Shown: positions 2,964-19,723 of the stretch, piece after piece | Layout: the number at the start of each line of letters is the position of its first letter | Position numbering within the stretch: the first letter of the stretch is position 1 | DNA from: a virus | Length of the DNA: 20,303 bases | Reading direction: 5' to 3' (one strand) | Virus record (IMG/VR): IMGVR_UViG_3300022927_000159 | Location: 1 to 20,303 of that record | Made by a program: the position numbers and the translations under genes | The notes under the pieces: generated by a model | Databases searched by the model: none | What the model saw: the letters and a program-made list of their open reading frames with translations, nothing else | Told to the model about the DNA's origin: nothing

Positions 2964-3581
2964 CTACCTTTTAAACCAAGATGGAAGACCTAAATGCGGT
3001 CTTTTATCAAACATATTTTCTTTGGATCCAGGAGTCTTTTTATTGTTATAATGCAAAAAAACTTGAACACATTCTTTGCCTTTAAATTTATTTCTCCAAT
3101 GCTCTAATTCACAACCAGAATAAACTAACATATCACCTTGTTTTAAATCTACTTTAATACCCTTCATACCTTCTTTACCAGATGGCTCTAAATATATAGG
3201 CCAAGGATCACCACCTAGATTCATTGTAGTAGATATCTCACAACTAAATCTATCTTTGTGTCTTTTTAATTCATCCCCTTTTTTATATATTCTTGCATAA
3301 GTATATGCTGGATATAATTTTAATCCTGTTATTTTTTCCATTTGTGGTTGACACTTTAACATTAAAGTTTCCATAGCAATATTTGCATATTGAGAGTATG
3401 TGTTTGGTATTTGTCTATCATCATAGCTTCCTATAATATTTTCAAATGGTGAAATATATCTTTGTGCTCTACAAGTATCATAAACTTGTTTTTGCATATT
3501 AAAATAGTTTGCAACAAATGCAGCTAAATCTTTTGATATAGCTTGACGAATAACTGTATATTTATTTTTTTTAAAACTCAT
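2964..3581 (-). CDS. 2OG-Fe(II) oxygenase-like protein, HxD type (cyanophage-like family)
   Basis: The protein has 205 residues and starts at an ATG overlapping the upstream stop by 4 nt. It shows a double-stranded beta-helix oxygenase pattern. The HxD iron ligands are H108 and D110 (RHKDRFSC), followed by a strand region NLGGDPWPIYLEP at 121-133. LKQGDMLVY at 146-154 leads to the distal ligand H161 in ELEHWR. Residues 169-178 (KECVQVFLHY) would carry the last strand; the usual distal Arg is not obvious. I recall this family from many marine phages. Known relatives use 2-oxoglutarate and O2 to hydroxylate a substrate, which cannot be predicted here. It is the last gene of the oxygenase run and lacks a Shine-Dalgarno sequence, so it is probably translationally coupled. 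Confidence 0.8.
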   Translation of the reverse strand: MSFKKNKYTVIRQAISKDLAAFVANYFNMQKQVYDTCRAQRYISPFENIIGSYDDRQIPNTYSQYANIAMETLMLKCQPQMEKITGLKLYPAYTYARIYKKGDELKRHKDRFSCEISTTMNLGGDPWPIYLEPSGKEGMKGIKVDLKQGDMLVYSGCELEHWRNKFKGKECVQVFLHYNNKKTPGSKENMFDKRPHLGLPSWFKR

Positions 3582-4195
3582 GTTATTTTTGTGGGGTCTA
3601 ATTTTATATTTCCAGAAACACTTATTCTTTTTTTATTTGATAAATAAAAAGGATATACTTGATGAACTAATTTTGAAGGAAACAATATAATAGTTTTTTC
3701 GTCTTCTGGCTCTAAATGATATTTTTGCTGGCAAACTGATCCTAAAATATTGGTGTAAGTAAATTCAAAAGTATTTGGACAAGGTACATTAGTTTCTCTA
3801 ACAAATTTTAATTTTTTTTCTTTTTTATAACTTGAAGGAATTTCTACCCAAACTACAAAAGATAAAACCCCTGAGTGACAATGTGATGGATTAAACTCAT
3901 ATTTATTTTGCATATTAACCCAAAACCCATCTAAAGCATAAGCACAATTTTTTGTTAAAGGATGTCCAACAATATTATTTATATCTTCCGGTGAATATTG
4001 ATCTATTAAAGAAAATAAAACATTTTTTAAAAACCAGTCATCTTTATCTTTTAAAGCAAAAGAATCTGATATATTTCCAGCTAAAGTAGCATTATATCTG
4101 TTTTTTTTATTTTTTATATAAATTTTTAATTTATTAAATGCTTCGTCATTTAATTTATCTTTAATAATTCCTGTATTTAAAAATGAATTAAACAT
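3578..4195 (-). CDS. Putative 2OG-Fe(II) oxygenase, HxH type (2OG-FeII_Oxy_5-like)
   Basis: The protein has 205 residues. Its ATG overlaps the upstream stop by 8 nt, and its own stop overlaps the next start by 4 nt. The likely metal site is H105/H107 in NPSHCHSGVLSFVVWVEIP, followed by ILFPSKLVHQVYPF with distal H178, and KKRISVSGNI with R190 as candidate 2-oxoglutarate anchor. This order (HxH, strand, FPS--H-V, then R-S-S-N) fits the TIGR02466/PF13759-type oxygenase-like proteins. The N-terminal 60 residues are Lys/Asn-rich. The coding sequence is very AT-rich, with many A and T homopolymers, unlike the capsid genes. Activity is not certain because the family has few characterised members. 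Confidence 0.72.
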   Translation of the reverse strand: MFNSFLNTGIIKDKLNDEAFNKLKIYIKNKKNRYNATLAGNISDSFALKDKDDWFLKNVLFSLIDQYSPEDINNIVGHPLTKNCAYALDGFWVNMQNKYEFNPSHCHSGVLSFVVWVEIPSSYKKEKKLKFVRETNVPCPNTFEFTYTNILGSVCQQKYHLEPEDEKTIILFPSKLVHQVYPFYLSNKKRISVSGNIKLDPTKIT

Positions 4196-4823
4196 CTTTA
4201 GCCATTTCTTTCGGTACAGCTTGTATATTCCAATGTATAAATCTAAACGGTTCTATACCATGATCGACCACATATTCATGTTCCAAGTATCCTGGAAAGA
4301 TAATTAAAGTTCCAGGTTGTACTTTACAATTAATTAATTCAGTTCCATGAAATATATCATTACTTGTTTTCATTTTTAATTTTGTAGCTCGTGCACCTGT
4401 TCTCGGTTCATGAAATACAGGATAAGAAGTTTTATCACTACATTTTAAAAAATAAAAACCTGATACATGTTGATTCCAATGTACGTGTGCTGAATGATGA
4501 CCACCACCTTTTTTAGCAAACTCTTGCACCCACATCTCACTAAACATAGTTGTGTACTGTTGCATATCAAAACCTTGCCAATCTAAAAACTCCCAAGATT
4601 TTTGACCTACATAATTTCTAAAATCTAAAAAATTATTATCCATAATTAATGGTGTTGAATGATAACTTCTTCCAAAATCTCCATGTTTTTTTATATATTC
4701 TTTTGCTTCTGGAAAATTTTTAGCTTTTTTAACATATTCATTGGAAGCTTTATTTAGAGATTTAACAAATTCAGGTTTTTGTTCTGTCCATATTGGTGTT
4801 TTAAAATATTCTTGAATAATCAT
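4188..4823 (-). CDS. Putative 2OG-Fe(II) oxygenase, HxH type
   Basis: I chose the ATG at 4823 (211 residues). The frame extends to a TTG at 4844, but that start has no ribosome-binding site and lies inside the previous gene; the ATG falls directly after the previous stop. The metal-site candidate is H113/H115 in HHSAHVHWNQHVSGFYFLK, matching the H-H---SG-YFL pattern of the PF13759-type oxygenase family. TLIIFPGYLEHEYV carries distal H182, and EPFRFIHWNI has R194 as the likely 2-oxoglutarate contact. It is a probable relative of the next downstream gene, judged by shared motif order rather than close identity. The substrate is unknown. Confidence 0.75.
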   Translation of the reverse strand: MIIQEYFKTPIWTEQKPEFVKSLNKASNEYVKKAKNFPEAKEYIKKHGDFGRSYHSTPLIMDNNFLDFRNYVGQKSWEFLDWQGFDMQQYTTMFSEMWVQEFAKKGGGHHSAHVHWNQHVSGFYFLKCSDKTSYPVFHEPRTGARATKLKMKTSNDIFHGTELINCKVQPGTLIIFPGYLEHEYVVDHGIEPFRFIHWNIQAVPKEMAKDV

Positions 4824-4824
4824 A

Positions 4825-5460
4825 TTATTTAAATGGATATCCAAGGTTCCACATTACCAATGAATATCTCGTTCCTTTCGTTACGGGTTTAACTCTATGC
4901 CAGACAAATGATGGAAAGACAATAATAGATCCTTTAGGTAATATCTCTTTTGCTTTTCTTAAATGTTGACTTTCATCTCTCATATGTGGATCATAGTTTC
5001 TAAAATCAAACTCTAACTCTCCACCTTCATATTCTGAACCATCTGTTAATTGACAAGTCATAGATAGCTTTCGAATTTTGCCGTGTTCTTCTGGATTGTT
5101 AGGTTTATCATAAGGTTTATGCCAACTATCACAGTGCCAATCATAGTATTGATTAAGTTTATATTTTGTAAATTGACAAGACTCACTTCTATCCCATTCA
5201 AAATTCCAACCAGCAGATTTATTAGCTTGATGTATGTAGGGATGTAATTCTTTATATATCCAAGTTTCACTTAACCAAACAAGATCTGAATTTCTTTTAC
5301 GTTTCATATCTTTTATTTCTTGTTTAGATAATTCTCTATCACCATATCCACCCGTTCTTGCCATAGATTCTGCTTGTGATAATCCATAATTAATTATGTC
5401 ATCACATAGTTTTGGTGGTATTGCTGAAGTAAAATACCAATAATAATTAGATATATTCAT
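4825..5460 (-). CDS. 2OG-Fe(II) dioxygenase, PKHD/prolyl-4-hydroxylase-like
   Basis: This 211-residue protein is the clearest oxygenase of the run. H109 and D111 (DWHCDSWH) form the HxD motif. They are followed by RKLSMTCQLTD at 130-140 and EYEGGELEF at 143-151, both typical of prolyl-hydroxylase-like folds. GSIIVFPSFVWHRVKPV supplies distal H188, and TKGTRYSLVMW supplies R198, the expected 2-oxoglutarate anchor ten residues on. The full catalytic set is present at normal family length, so activity is likely. The family hydroxylates peptidyl or small-molecule substrates; which one is unknown. The ATG at 5460 overlaps the upstream gene by 14 nt and has no Shine-Dalgarno sequence, implying coupling. 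Confidence 0.85.
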   Translation of the reverse strand: MNISNYYWYFTSAIPPKLCDDIINYGLSQAESMARTGGYGDRELSKQEIKDMKRKRNSDLVWLSETWIYKELHPYIHQANKSAGWNFEWDRSESCQFTKYKLNQYYDWHCDSWHKPYDKPNNPEEHGKIRKLSMTCQLTDGSEYEGGELEFDFRNYDPHMRDESQHLRKAKEILPKGSIIVFPSFVWHRVKPVTKGTRYSLVMWNLGYPFK

Positions 5461-5950
5461 AAGTTATTGTTTTAACAAAATTCAATGAATCTTTTTGATT
5501 GTTTGAGATAACATACATGTTTGTCGATGGAAACATAATGAACATATTATCTTTTAATTCTATATCCCAACTTTTTCCTTTTCTTCTATTGTTGTCATAG
5601 AATATTCGCACCATACATTCATTAGTTTTAACACCATACAATAATGTATAATCAGGTGAGTTTCGAAGATCTATTGGATCAATATTTAGTAAGGGTTGTG
5701 ATATTTGATTAGGTTTATAAATATCTCCAAATGTTTTTTTATTAACTAATTGAAAGCCATATTCTAAATTTATATGCTCACGTATATACGTATTCAACAT
5801 ATCCCAAGTTCTTGAGAATGGAAACTCTGAATTTATAAATGTCGATTGTAAAATGTCGCCTGATAGTTTATCTCGATCTATTTCAAAACCTTTAGGCATT
5901 GAAACATCACCATAGTATAAAGCTTGCTCTGTTAAAACTTTCTTTTGCAT
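5447..5950 (-). CDS. Conserved marine-phage protein, oxygenase-like but without metal ligands
   Basis: The protein has 167 residues. KNPDYT-like strands, then SWDIELKDNMFIMFPSTNMYV and a terminal TITYEY, resemble the second half of a beta-helix oxygenase. There is no HxD or HxH, and the position where FPS is normally followed by a distal His carries Asn/Tyr (STNMYVISNN). If the fold is right, this is a catalytically dead or non-metal relative. The N-terminus (VLTEQALYYGDVSMPKGFEID) recalls hypothetical proteins of cyanophages. The ribosome-binding region is unusual: GGGTGGTGGT abuts the ATG in place of an AGGAG sequence. It could act as a binding partner of the neighbouring oxygenases or as a structural protein. 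Its function is not known. Confidence 0.65.
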   Translation of the reverse strand: MQKKVLTEQALYYGDVSMPKGFEIDRDKLSGDILQSTFINSEFPFSRTWDMLNTYIREHINLEYGFQLVNKKTFGDIYKPNQISQPLLNIDPIDLRNSPDYTLLYGVKTNECMVRIFYDNNRRKGKSWDIELKDNMFIMFPSTNMYVISNNQKDSLNFVKTITYEYI

Positions 5951-5968
5951 ACCACCACCCGATATATG

Positions 5969-6418
5969 TTATGCTAGACTATTTGTCAAATCCCAGGCTT
6001 GAGTTTCTTCATTCCAGTTGTAACCCCATCTGTGAGTTCCAGCTACAGTTTGATCTTTTTGTTCTTCTGTTAATGCTGGAGCAGCACCAATTGGTGATTC
6101 CCAATTAGCAATTGTATTATTTTTTACCCAAGATGCATGTGGTTTTTTAGGCCAAAAGATTTGATCATCTTCATCCCAAGTGTAACCAATCCCTGCATAG
6201 TTTCCTCTAAACGCTGTACCACCATTAGTATGTTGATTACCTACTGTATTGTAAGATGTTTGAATCCACATTTGTGCAGGCCAATTATTATGTGTTTCTA
6301 AATATTGTTGACCTACTGATTCATCTTCAACACCATCAGCATTTAACATATTAACATTATCAAGTGTTAATACTTGAATAACTTTATTATTAGTTCCTAG
6401 TTTTGCAAAATGTGCCAT
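5969..6418 (-). CDS. Conserved Trp-rich marine-phage protein of unknown function
   Basis: The protein has 149 residues, starts MAHFAKLGTNNKVIQVL, and has an AAAGGATAA ribosome-binding site before the ATG. I recall similar proteins in cyanophages and other marine phages, always as hypotheticals. It contains nine Trp (46, 51, 81, 89, 97, 106, 131, 135, 142), several in repeated W-D or W-E settings such as YTWDEDDQIFWPKKP and GYNWNEETQAW. These suggest small beta-hairpin repeats with a (Y/F)xW core. No signal peptide, membrane segment or catalytic motif is visible. It lies directly after the halogenase gene. It may be a virion surface protein; this is inference. Confidence 0.75.
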   Translation of the reverse strand: MAHFAKLGTNNKVIQVLTLDNVNMLNADGVEDESVGQQYLETHNNWPAQMWIQTSYNTVGNQHTNGGTAFRGNYAGIGYTWDEDDQIFWPKKPHASWVKNNTIANWESPIGAAPALTEEQKDQTVAGTHRWGYNWNEETQAWDLTNSLA

Positions 6419-6435
6419 ATGTTTATCCTTTTACA

Positions 6436-7581
6436 TTATTTCTTATATTTTGTAAATATATTATATTTAAAATTTTTCTCAAGATTGTGCCATAAAATAG
6501 GTATAAAAGGAAAAGTTTTGTCTCCATTATAATCTAAATCTTTAATATGTTTTATTGTTTCTTTCCATATATTATTATTATTATTAATATGTTCATAAGT
6601 TTTTTTCTTTGCATATTTCCAAAATTTACTATCAAAATTAGAGCCTCCATGATAAGCATAACATATAAAATTTTCATATCTAATAGCCATATCATCTAAA
6701 TAATTGTTTAATTCATCTTCTGATTTATTATTATGTAAGTAATCCCAAAAGGATCTGTTTATATTGTCATACATTACACCTGAAAGAGCTTCAATAGGTT
6801 CGTAAAAAATAGCTCTATTTCCATTTTTTAAAATTCTATCTTTTAAAAAATTTTTAGCTCTATAAGGTTTAAATTTAAATTCATTTATATTTTCTTTTTT
6901 TACATCTTTATTTAAAAGATTACTTAAATCTTTTAAAGCTTCTTCGTCAGAAGTAATTTTATCATTAAAAAGATAACCCCAACCTTGTCTTGTTTGTAGA
7001 GGTATTCCAAACATCCAACCATTTTTAGTCGCTTGATGGTAGGTAAAATTCCAATCACCTGGTTTATTTATTTGATGTGCAAAACATTTATTTAAAGGAA
7101 GAGCATTACAAACATGATAATCATCATATGATTCTGGCCAACCCCTACAATCAATTATATAATCAAATTTATTTTTTAAACTTTCTAAATTTGAAACATC
7201 TTCATGTAATTCTTTAAACCTATTTTTATAAATTTCTTTACATCTTTTAAAAACAAAATCTTTTAATTTAAAATTATTAAAATGCATTGCGTAATAAGGA
7301 GGTAAAATAGGACTTGTAAAATCTATTTTTCTCCAATTTTTATATAAAACATAATATTTTATTGTTGCATCTAGTTCTTTAGAATCAAATTGAATATTAT
7401 ATTTTATAGATTCCCAAAGCAATTTAGGTAGTTGAACATTACTACTTTCACCTATTCCTAAAATTTTTTTATTAGGATTATATATGCAAGTAATTTCTGT
7501 TTTTAAGTCACCCGCATATCTTAAAAAATGACACACAGTCATTACACCGACAGTACCGGTTCCCACCACAGCAATTTTCAT
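6436..7581 (-). CDS. Flavin-dependent halogenase of the tryptophan halogenase family
   Basis: The protein has 381 residues. GTGTVG at 7-12 is the FAD-binding GxGxxG of a Rossmann fold. GIGESSNVQLP at 42-52 matches the G-GEAT-P element. K75 lies eight residues before W83 in KYYVLYKNWRK, the spacing of the catalytic Lys in PrnA. GWMFGIPL at 188-195 aligns with the signature GWxWxIP, with Phe for the second Trp. FYEPIEALSG at 259-268 matches F-EPLES-G, with E264 at the catalytic Glu and Ala for Ser. The protein is shorter than bacterial enzymes of about 530 residues. VirX1 of a cyanophage is a known viral member. The expected reaction is FADH2-, O2- and halide-dependent halogenation; a separate flavin reductase is needed and none is seen. 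The ATG has no Shine-Dalgarno sequence. Confidence 0.85.
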   Translation of the reverse strand: MKIAVVGTGTVGVMTVCHFLRYAGDLKTEITCIYNPNKKILGIGESSNVQLPKLLWESIKYNIQFDSKELDATIKYYVLYKNWRKIDFTSPILPPYYAMHFNNFKLKDFVFKRCKEIYKNRFKELHEDVSNLESLKNKFDYIIDCRGWPESYDDYHVCNALPLNKCFAHQINKPGDWNFTYHQATKNGWMFGIPLQTRQGWGYLFNDKITSDEEALKDLSNLLNKDVKKENINEFKFKPYRAKNFLKDRILKNGNRAIFYEPIEALSGVMYDNINRSFWDYLHNNKSEDELNNYLDDMAIRYENFICYAYHGGSNFDSKFWKYAKKKTYEHINNNNNIWKETIKHIKDLDYNGDKTFPFIPILWHNLEKNFKYNIFTKYKK

Positions 7582-7584
7582 ATT

Positions 7585-8886
7585 TTATTGATATTTATAT
7601 CTTATAACTACAATTCCAGATCCACCAGCAGCACCACTACCCATAAAACCAGATCCTCTAGCTGTTCCTGCTCCACCGCCACCACCAGTGTTTGCTGTTC
7701 CAGCTTGGGAAGGTGGTTCTGCTGGTGGACCATAAGCTCGTCCTCCGCCACCAGTTCCACCTAAACCATTATCATCACCTGTATGAGAACCACCGCCACC
7801 ACCGCCACCATAAGCAGTTGGTGATGCTGTGATTGAAGTAGTTGCTCCATCTCCACCGTCAGCGGGTGTTCCACCAGCTATAGTAGTTCCAACTTGTGTT
7901 GCTCCACCACCGCCACCAGAACCAGATCCTCCAGTATTAGGGGCTCCAGCACCGCCAGGAAAACCTTGAGACGGACTTACAGGAGGTGTATTACCTGCTC
8001 CTCCTGCTCCACCAGTATTAGCTCCACCACCACCTGAACCACCAGTAGCTCCAGCTCGAGGAGCTGGGTCACCTGCACCGAAACCTCCACCAGTAGAAGT
8101 TATTGTTGAAAAAACTGAATTGCCACCACTACCTGCTGCTGTAATTGTTCCACCTGGATAGCTAGTAGTGGAAAAAGTTCCAGCAGACCCACCTGCTCCA
8201 ACTGTTATTGGATAAGGTGTTGCAGTTACTGTAATTGCAGTACCACCTGGATTACCGTTAAGGGGACTTGCTGAATAACAGTCTGCAGGTCCTTTATATT
8301 CTCTGAAACCTCCAGCTCCACCACCGCCACCACCAGCTCCAGAAGCTCCACCACCGCCACCACCACCGACGACCGTATAAGAAACTATATTATTTGCAGC
8401 ACATGCAGAAGTTCCAGACACTGCAAAAGTACCAGGTCCTGTAAATTTATGAATTTTGTAATCTCCTGAAGTTGTAATTGTTCCACCTGTTGCTGTTATA
8501 AAAGTTTGAGCTCTAGCATTAGATGTTGAGTCTATTACATTTAACCAACCTTGTGTTGAATCTACATATACAAATGTAACTGATTGACCTTCTGTATTTA
8601 AAGTTGCATCAGCATTTGCTCCACCAATTTTATCTGACCCATTTGGAGATACTGTTACATTATTTGTTTGCCAAGTTGCTGCATAATCAGCTAAGGCAAC
8701 TATATCTCCAGCTGAACCTGCTGGAAGTGTTACTGTAATTGCTGCAGATGTTGTGTTAACAAAATAACCATTACCACTTACAGCAGTGAATCCTGAAGTT
8801 TTAGCTGTAGTGTCCCAAGTAACCGCTCCAATATTTTGGAAAACTCCCTGATCTATCATTGTAGTTCCGCACGATACTACTCCCAT
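7585..8886 (-). CDS. Glycine-rich tail-fibre adhesin (gp38/PGII-like)
   Basis: The protein has 433 residues, an AAAGGAGA ribosome-binding site and a TAATG overlap with the upstream fibre gene. Residues 1-125 are a Thr/Val-rich beta domain (GVFQNIGAVTWDT, ITVTLPAGSAGDIVALADY) seen on phage fibres. Residues 147-173 (KFTGPGTFAVSG, VSYTVVGGGG) begin a glycine-rich domain that runs to the C-terminus. Poly-Gly blocks at 174-193, 284-300, 318-328, 360-366, 378-382 and 401-405 are separated by short polar loops, and the protein ends SGIVVIRYKYQ. This design matches glycine-rich adhesins in which polyglycine-II helices display variable receptor-binding loops. It is therefore the best candidate host-range determinant. 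Confidence 0.82.
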   Translation of the reverse strand: MGVVSCGTTMIDQGVFQNIGAVTWDTTAKTSGFTAVSGNGYFVNTTSAAITVTLPAGSAGDIVALADYAATWQTNNVTVSPNGSDKIGGANADATLNTEGQSVTFVYVDSTQGWLNVIDSTSNARAQTFITATGGTITTSGDYKIHKFTGPGTFAVSGTSACAANNIVSYTVVGGGGGGGASGAGGGGGGAGGFREYKGPADCYSASPLNGNPGGTAITVTATPYPITVGAGGSAGTFSTTSYPGGTITAAGSGGNSVFSTITSTGGGFGAGDPAPRAGATGGSGGGGANTGGAGGAGNTPPVSPSQGFPGGAGAPNTGGSGSGGGGGATQVGTTIAGGTPADGGDGATTSITASPTAYGGGGGGGSHTGDDNGLGGTGGGGRAYGPPAEPPSQAGTANTGGGGGAGTARGSGFMGSGAAGGSGIVVIRYKYQ

Positions 8887-19255: not shown

Positions 19256-19723
19256 TTAATATTGATGAAGTATATCTTCGGGGTTATCGATTGTAGCTAA
19301 CACTTCATCATCATTTAGCAATCTAACTTCACCCCCGTCAATTTGTATACGGCTTCCTGCATATCTTGCAAAGACAACCCAATCACCCTTCTTGCACCAA
19401 GGTCCTTCAGGAAATTTTTCTTTGTCATAACAATGAGGTCCCATTGCTAAAACCAAACCACATTGAGATGCAACTTGTTGTTTTTCTAAAGTTTCTTGTC
19501 CAAGAATTAATCCACCTTTAGTTTTTTCTTTCATCTTGAAAGGGAGAAGTAACATTCTCCAACCAGTGGGTTGAGGTAATTTATCTGATTCTTTTGTTTT
19601 TAATCGTTCGTAAGTTTTTTGTTCTTTATCTTCGATCTTTTTATTTTCTTCTTCGTATTTGTCCGCCAAAGCATATTTAATCTTTGGGTTCTCCGAATTT
19701 GATAACTGTTCCTTTTTCGTCAT
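19256..19723 (-). CDS. Phage-encoded GroES-like co-chaperonin
   Basis: The protein has 155 residues with an AAGGAG ribosome-binding site. Residues 54-145 have the GroES order: GWRMLLLPF, then EKTKGGLIL with the hydrophobic tripeptide LIL at 72-74 in the mobile-loop position that would contact GroEL. QVASQCGLVLAMGP follows, then KKGDWVVFARYAGSRIQIDG, VRLLNDDEVLATI. Residues 1-50 are a charged helical extension absent from bacterial GroES (about 97 residues). T4 gp31 and other phage co-chaperonins help fold capsid protein with host GroEL; the head-gene context here suggests the same. No GroEL gene is present. The start lies 47 nt inside the upstream gene. Confidence 0.85.
   Translation of the reverse strand: MTKKEQLSNSENPKIKYALADKYEEENKKIEDKEQKTYERLKTKESDKLPQPTGWRMLLLPFKMKEKTKGGLILGQETLEKQQVASQCGLVLAMGPHCYDKEKFPEGPWCKKGDWVVFARYAGSRIQIDGGEVRLLNDDEVLATIDNPEDILHQY

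Follow-up and report, generated by a model that had tools for sequence, protein, structure and literature searches.

What does a run of oxygenase genes, accompanied by a flavin-dependent halogenase, do between the fibre and nozzle genes of a marine virus? The question was raised by positions 2964-7581 of the IMG/VR virus record IMGVR_UViG_3300022927_000159, which was analysed over its full 20,303 nucleotides (the window). The record is a 20.3 kb virus fragment of an HTVC023P-type pelagiphage, and the host group of such viruses consists of abundant ocean bacteria. A sequence-only reading had proposed that four genes with oxygenase metal ligands, a fifth oxygenase-like gene without them and a flavin halogenase may act together as an oxidative tailoring pathway. 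The explanation favoured here, given a probability of roughly 45%, is that these genes form a modular cassette of protein-modifying oxidases that would target tip proteins of the phage's own receptor-binding apparatus. In order of transcription, the cassette and its two flanking genes read as follows (2OG, 2-oxoglutarate; aa, amino acids).

7585-8886, - strand: glycine-rich tail-tip/adhesin-like protein (PF21722 Gly_rich_2, E 1.1e-15)
6436-7581, - strand: compact flavin-dependent halogenase, 381 aa (PF04820, PHROG_2928)
5969-6418, - strand: Trp-rich fibre-linked protein, 149 aa (PHROG_7759)
5447-5950, - strand: conserved putative pseudo-2OG-oxygenase, 167 aa (predicted oxygenase fold, metal ligands absent)
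4825-5460, - strand: predicted Fe/2OG oxygenase, HxD...H (2OG-FeII_Oxy_3, PHROG_61)
4188-4844, - strand: predicted 2OG oxygenase, HxH...H (2OG-FeII_Oxy_5)
3578-4195, - strand: predicted 2OG oxygenase, HxH...H (2OG-FeII_Oxy_5)
2964-3581, - strand: predicted 2OG oxygenase named 'ferrochelatase', HxD...H (PHROG_2954)
950-2893, - strand: nozzle-like virion structural protein (PHROG_3287, E 1.4e-85), the anchor of the site survey

The genes had been described as contiguous in one direction except for the Trp-rich gene. A single direction was found for all of them, the Trp-rich gene included, which breaks only the run of enzymes. The last five cassette genes overlap head to tail by 14, 20, 8 and 4 bases, and overlaps of this size suggest that the cassette genes are co-translated.

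Oxygenases with metal ligands and the PHROG_2954 family

The four genes credited with an HxD or HxH motif plus a distal His retained these ligands when conservation was scored over 11-73 non-redundant relatives per family. H108/D110/H161 of the 2964 gene, H105/H107/H178 of the 3578 gene and H120/H122/H189 of the 4188 gene were invariant, and H109/D111/H188 of the 4825 gene were kept at 97-100%; such conservation argues against a chance occurrence of the motifs. R201 (4188 gene) and R198 (4825 gene) were also marked, and both Oxy_5 members showed the HxH...H pattern with a C-terminal Arg in most of their relatives. Pfam matches were obtained to 2OG-FeII_Oxy_3 for the 4825 gene (9.8e-16) and to 2OG-FeII_Oxy_5 for the 4188 (1.2e-12) and 3578 (6.9e-12) genes. 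The 4825 gene additionally matched PHROG_61 (E 3.3e-39) and, weakly, PiuC in the PDB (1.4e-4). The ligand triad of the Fe/2OG superfamily was therefore found in all four genes, on a fold that was predicted by modelling for the 2964 gene and assigned by Pfam for the other three. They are assigned as 2OG oxygenases with intact ligand triads that are predicted to be active.

The 2964 product matched PHROG_2954 (E 5.9e-55) and no Pfam family. In passages of PMC9599517 and PMC11561400, PHROG_2954 is taken to be a ferrochelatase. None of 44 members of the PHROG_2954 alignment matched the ferrochelatase Pfam profile at E values up to 1. The AlphaFold2 model of the 2964 product (predicted local distance difference test score, pLDDT, 90.9) is a double-stranded beta-helix, and its top Foldseek match was PPHD, a prolyl hydroxylase of Pseudomonas, in a structure with bound EF-Tu (4iw3, 1.9e-9); HygX, EctD and AlkB were also among the Foldseek matches. 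Z scores of 15-16.6 were obtained to SnoN (the highest), PPHD and PHD2, aligned over residues 1-193, at 13-14% identity to the nearest folds. No PDB match came from a sequence search with the 2964-gene alignment, and comparing its profile against that of the 4825-gene alignment showed no signal, both alignments being too shallow.

Because of the predicted fold and the invariant HxD...H, PHROG_2954 is very probably a 2OG oxygenase, prolyl-hydroxylase-like, and the ferrochelatase name very probably wrong. The chelatase reading was rejected on this positive assignment, a confident 2OG-oxygenase fold with the 2OG triad, and not by the absence of a chelatase match. A published rule places a 2OG gene next to every phage ferrochelatase; with PHROG_2954 reassigned, it would read that oxygenases cluster with oxygenases. 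The correction would also remove an inferred haem/iron role from the published ecology (PMC9599517, PMC11561400).

Separately, the names of PHROG_2297, PHROG_274 and PHROG_1644 ('DNA endonuclease (V)' and 'minor coat protein') fell on 2OG-like cassette genes of relatives (L022:8967-9449, L090:5781-6440, L104:2534-3211, and L020:5916-6551 and 7129-7779). Several genes under these three families may be further mis-named 2OG-fold proteins.

Recurrence of the oxygenase run and its ligand-free member

Related loci were surveyed through the nozzle gene. Eighty were collected, 35 of which reach the fibre gene; their nozzle proteins are 79-100% identical, so that the sample describes this phage group only. 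At least one 2OG gene, and mostly two to six, was present at 34 of the 35 sites when further 2OG families among the unassigned genes were counted. The 4825 type occurred at 31 sites, PHROG_2954 at 26, the Trp-rich gene at 23 and the pseudo-oxygenase at 12, followed by the rarer 4188 (11) and 3578 (2) types and the halogenase (3). The exact order Trp-rich - pseudo-oxygenase - 2OG - 2OG - PHROG_2954 was found in 23/86 fibre-reaching sites, and some relatives carried inverted or reduced cassettes. Other inserts at the site were a methyltransferase, a Nol-like carbamoyltransferase and a sulfotransferase, as well as tail-fibre or collar proteins. The carbamoyltransferase and methyltransferase inserts include L032:1385-3058 and L074:7850-8536, and one sulfotransferase and one kinase-like match were seen among the insert representatives. 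In P-RSM4 and S-MS29, a carbamoyltransferase precedes the 2OG - PHROG_2954 - Trp-rich genes.

Beyond this sample, the adhesin, Trp-rich, 2OG and PHROG_2954 families were found together in HTVC023P, 023Pt_psg01, HTVC033P, HTVC008M, P-RSM4, S-MS29 and S-SM1, phages of different virion types and with different outer neighbours, in the same or a rearranged order. HTVC023P and 023Pt_psg01 share the layout of the window from fibre to nozzle, with a PHROG_2954 gene, two 2OG genes, the pseudo-oxygenase and the Trp-rich gene; HTVC023P carries the oxygenases without a halogenase. In HTVC008M and Mosig, T4-like marine phages and thus myoviruses, PHROG_2954 and a cluster of 2OG genes are likewise flanked by fibre genes and neck genes.

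The fifth oxygenase-like gene (5447-5950) had been read as lacking ligands, and this was borne out. Its product matched neither Pfam nor PHROG, and its AlphaFold2 model (pLDDT 88.6) has a predicted 2OG-oxygenase fold, with PHD2 found by Foldseek (1.5e-6) and Z 14.5 to both 3bvc and 2rg4 over 151-153 residues. The viral collagen hydroxylase vCPH was among the best VIA-align matches, and AlkB structures were also among the fold matches. No conserved His, and hence no metal triad, was found in 52 non-redundant relatives; the conserved residues are D50, S98, D100, Y105, N121, R122, K124, N135, N144, Y146, N150 and N157. Comparing its profile against that of the 4825-gene alignment again showed no signal, the alignments being too shallow.

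The median pairwise ratio of nonsynonymous to synonymous substitution rates (dN/dS) was ~0.23, a guide value as distant pairs are saturated. For the halogenase and the 3578 gene, dN/dS came from few or saturated pairs and was given no weight. The next cassette gene was a 4825-type oxygenase in 150/160 copies, and all 12 nozzle-sampled sites with the pseudo-oxygenase also held 4825-type, PHROG_2954 and Trp-rich genes. Given this purifying selection, the nearly constant neighbour and the joint presence with other cassette genes, the 5447 product is assigned from its conservation and modelled fold as a maintained pseudo-oxygenase, not an active oxygenase. Most simply, it would be a non-catalytic partner of the neighbouring oxygenase. 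A proposed model is the TlxI/TlxJ heterodimer (PMC12141560), in which a catalytically incompetent oxygenase-fold subunit is encoded with an active one and is needed for efficient catalysis. Those are fungal natural-product enzymes, however, and TlxI lacks the 2OG-binding Arg whereas the pseudo-oxygenase lacks the metal ligands. Conservation of the pseudo-oxygenase suggests that oxygenases may work in pairs in phages.

The halogenase and its positions

The catalytic Lys and Glu ascribed to the halogenase were kept, as K75 and E264. The protein matched Trp_halogenase (PF04820; 1.1e-27, 97.4 bits against a cut-off of 21) and PHROG_2928 (6.3e-78), and its motifs comprise GTGTVG at residues 7-12, K75, W189/I193/P194 and E261/E264. 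When aligned to RebH, K75 fell on the Lys of SYK and E264 on the second Glu of the EPLES motif; the catalytic roles of these residues are those of PrnA and RebH. The WxWxIP motif reads WMFGIP, the first Trp, the Ile and the Pro being invariant and the second Trp replaced by Phe in this clade. PDB matches were LooH, RebH, PrnA and VirX1. Compared with RebH, about 90 residues fewer lie between the flavin adenine dinucleotide (FAD)/Lys part and the core (query 85-156 against 109-269), which makes this a compact form. This shorter stretch probably alters the tryptophan pocket, and with it the substrate range.

Before the Trp-rich gene, as in the window, is one of approximately seven positions that the halogenase occupies at this site. 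In relatives it separates the Trp-rich gene from the pseudo-oxygenase (L011, L229), the pseudo-oxygenase from the 4825 type (L031), the 4825 type from the 4188 type (L157) or the 4825 type from PHROG_2954 (L078), or it comes after PHROG_2954 (L009, L014). In L010 and L015 it adjoins the nozzle gene and is the only one of the seven cassette families present. In a tree of 37 halogenases, well-supported branches forced a minimum of five switches between this site and other locations: L157 grouped with the VirX1 pair, the second copy of L014 and L229 with the S-ShM2 type, and L031 and L078 with others. The tree indicates that halogenases of several distant lineages entered the fibre-nozzle site repeatedly and independently. 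When 50 longer contigs were searched whole, podovirus halogenases were seen only at this site, a weak result given that these are short contigs, most of them centred on it. The association of halogenase and site is recurrent, not obligate.

The proposal of one joint pathway could be kept in part. The oxygenases hold together in order and place, whereas the halogenase is rare, shifts in position and is of several lineages, which in part matches the outcome named beforehand as refuting the proposal, genes that occur independently. A single fixed halogenase-oxygenase pathway was rejected on the presence of the halogenase at 3/35 sites, the spread of its positions and the sites lacking the listed 2OG families.

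VirX1, the characterised viral halogenase, corresponds to CPUG_00131 of cyanophage Syn10 (whole-length match, E = 0). In Syn10, fibre-region genes, so identified from position and the annotation of homologous cyanophage regions, and a second halogenase precede VirX1, and a 2OG array ending in a PHROG_2954 relative follows it. The locus resembles the window in combining a halogenase among fibre-region genes, a 2OG array and a PHROG_2954 relative. It differs in that the window halogenase, at 381 aa against 530, belongs to another lineage than VirX1 and matches it only over residues 177-325 (3.8e-9), and in that the oxygenase members are others. In S-ShM2, S-RIM4, P-SSM2 and S-SCSM1, the halogenase is a neighbour of structural or fibre genes. 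It adjoins a 2OG gene in HTVC008M, although apart from the main cassette, and is one gene away from a 2OG gene in P-SSM2.

The sequence-only reading knew of no described pathway of this composition in a phage structural operon. That statement has to be qualified, as the oxygenase cluster in HTVC023P-type phages is already known: 2OG clusters were published for these pelagiphages (Wittmers 2022, PMC9599517), passages of that work treating them as auxiliary metabolic genes (AMGs), and the Syn10 locus is similar. A halogenase is named nowhere in PMC9599517 (0 occurrences); PHROG_2954 is read there as ferrochelatase, and passages of the paper on these genes do not mention the ligand-free oxygenase. 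A literature search for phage halogenases together with ferrochelatase or VirX1 returned nothing, nor did one for phage-tail prolyl hydroxylases with collagen. New, or without an earlier report found, are the assignment of PHROG_2954 as a probable 2OG oxygenase, the conserved pseudo-oxygenase, the halogenase in podoviral pelagiphages, where it reached a single site repeatedly, and the recognition that VirX1 is encoded in a locus of this type.

One contig with a tail-sheath gene carried four halogenases of different lineages within ~9 kb (L020:2265-11170; L019 is near-identical). Genes of 2OG families are interspersed among them, a Gly-rich protein is encoded nearby, and a PHROG_2954 gene follows.

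Candidate targets of the cassette

The Trp-rich protein (PHROG_7759, E 3.8e-32) has W51, W97, W106, W135 and W142 invariant or nearly so, and the Gly-rich adhesin was its upstream neighbour in 145 of ~170 copies. In different phage families, among them podo- and myoviruses, the adhesin occurs together with the Trp-rich and 2OG genes, and it is proposed as a substrate or partner of the cassette enzymes. The oxygenases would hydroxylate side chains of fibre-tip proteins (the adhesin and/or the Trp-rich protein) during virion assembly. The pseudo-oxygenase would serve the 4825-5460 enzyme by positioning the substrate or by stabilisation, and the halogenase, dependent on reduced FAD (FADH2), would, where present, halogenate an exposed aromatic residue. 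Binding to the host surface might be tuned or varied as a result, or the stability of the tip altered.

Modification of tip proteins is favoured because cassette and tip module recur together across virion types whose outer neighbours differ, because the closest Foldseek folds are protein hydroxylases (PPHD with EF-Tu, PHD2) and because the other recognisable inserted enzymes are mostly of group-transfer kinds. The place of the 2OG genes between fibre and nozzle, the convergence of halogenases, the gene overlaps and the dN/dS of the pseudo-oxygenase were also counted in its favour. Several points weigh against it. Tail-fibre regions are generic hotspots, so the neighbourhood alone could reflect tolerance of insertions. 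The nearest solved folds include small-molecule enzymes (SnoN with the top Z; HygX, EctD). In several cyanophages (S-MS29, S-SSM5, S-SSM7 and P-TIM40), the halogenase lies away from both fibre and 2OG genes, and Bellamy and HTVC025P carry the Trp-rich gene and the adhesin without oxygenases.

A wider proposal, tentative and with the odds against it, is that a locus for chemically tailoring the phage's own receptor-binding tip is shared, as an exchangeable unit, by marine phages with several types of virion. Stacked protein hydroxylases with pseudo-enzyme partners, joined by an optional halogenase or by optional carbamoyl-, sulfo- or methyltransferases, would generate combinatorial diversity of the adhesin after translation. 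If true, this would provide a native role for viral halogenases, VirX1 included. Marine phages commonly carry 2OG oxygenases and halogenases whose presence is unexplained, and the recurrent link to the fibre offers a concrete and testable class of substrate.

It is possible, if rather unlikely, that the genes are separate AMGs gathered in a tolerant hotspot beside the fibre genes, each with its own substrate and without joint action. The rarity and shifting position of the halogenase, the many relatives with inverted or reduced cassettes and the insertion of unrelated enzymes and fibre genes would all be accommodated, and the treatment as AMGs in passages of PMC9599517 agrees. Less easily explained are the strongly conserved order of pseudo-oxygenase, 4825 type and PHROG_2954 (the 23 identical sites and the same downstream neighbour in 150/160 copies), the joint recurrence of the families in different phage families and the predominance of tailoring kinds among inserted enzymes with a recognised domain.

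The resemblance of PHROG_2954 to PPHD, its closest structural relative from bacteria, which hydroxylates EF-Tu and whose complex with it was the top Foldseek match, raises the improbable alternative that the oxygenases modify host proteins such as translation factors and so redirect the infected cell. Similar folds with 13-14% identity do not establish a shared substrate, and the position in a structural operon suggests late expression.

Tryptophan and phenolics are the classical substrates of the halogenase family, and VirX1 reportedly iodinates diverse substrates in vitro. Production or alteration of a small metabolite or surface glycan by the set, for example of a halogenated aromatic that protects the infected cell or changes its surface, would fit these substrates, the likeness of the PHROG_2954 model to the tailoring oxygenase SnoN and the antibiotic protection suggested for cyanophage prnA (PMC2984593). 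This is nevertheless quite improbable, as the operon holds no biosynthetic scaffold enzymes and the halogenase, some 90 residues shorter than RebH between the FAD and core motifs, probably has an altered tryptophan pocket. An AlkB-like action on nucleic acid, in repair or base modification, is very improbable: AlkB structures were among the fold matches and a nucleic-acid role was proposed for Syn9 homologues (PMC2984593), but prolyl hydroxylases rank equal or higher and the cassette lies in a structural operon, not by replication or repair genes.

Outside the cassette, the genes that run from GroES via the capsid to the nozzle match in size those of HTVC027P, in which the co-chaperonin GroES-like gene (19256-19723, upstream of the capsid genes) is also annotated. 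The guanine-plus-cytosine (GC) content is 24-31% in the cassette genes, 35% in the Trp-rich gene and 31-46% in the backbone; it was not used as a sign of lateral transfer, since GC at third codon positions (GC3) did not differ clearly between cassette and backbone. In the pelagimyophage Mosig EXVC030M (L257:9984-11220), genes annotated as 'heme oxygenase' and 'phycocyanobilin:ferredoxin oxidoreductase' come after the 2OG cassette, which is odd for a phage whose host lacks phycobilin pigments.

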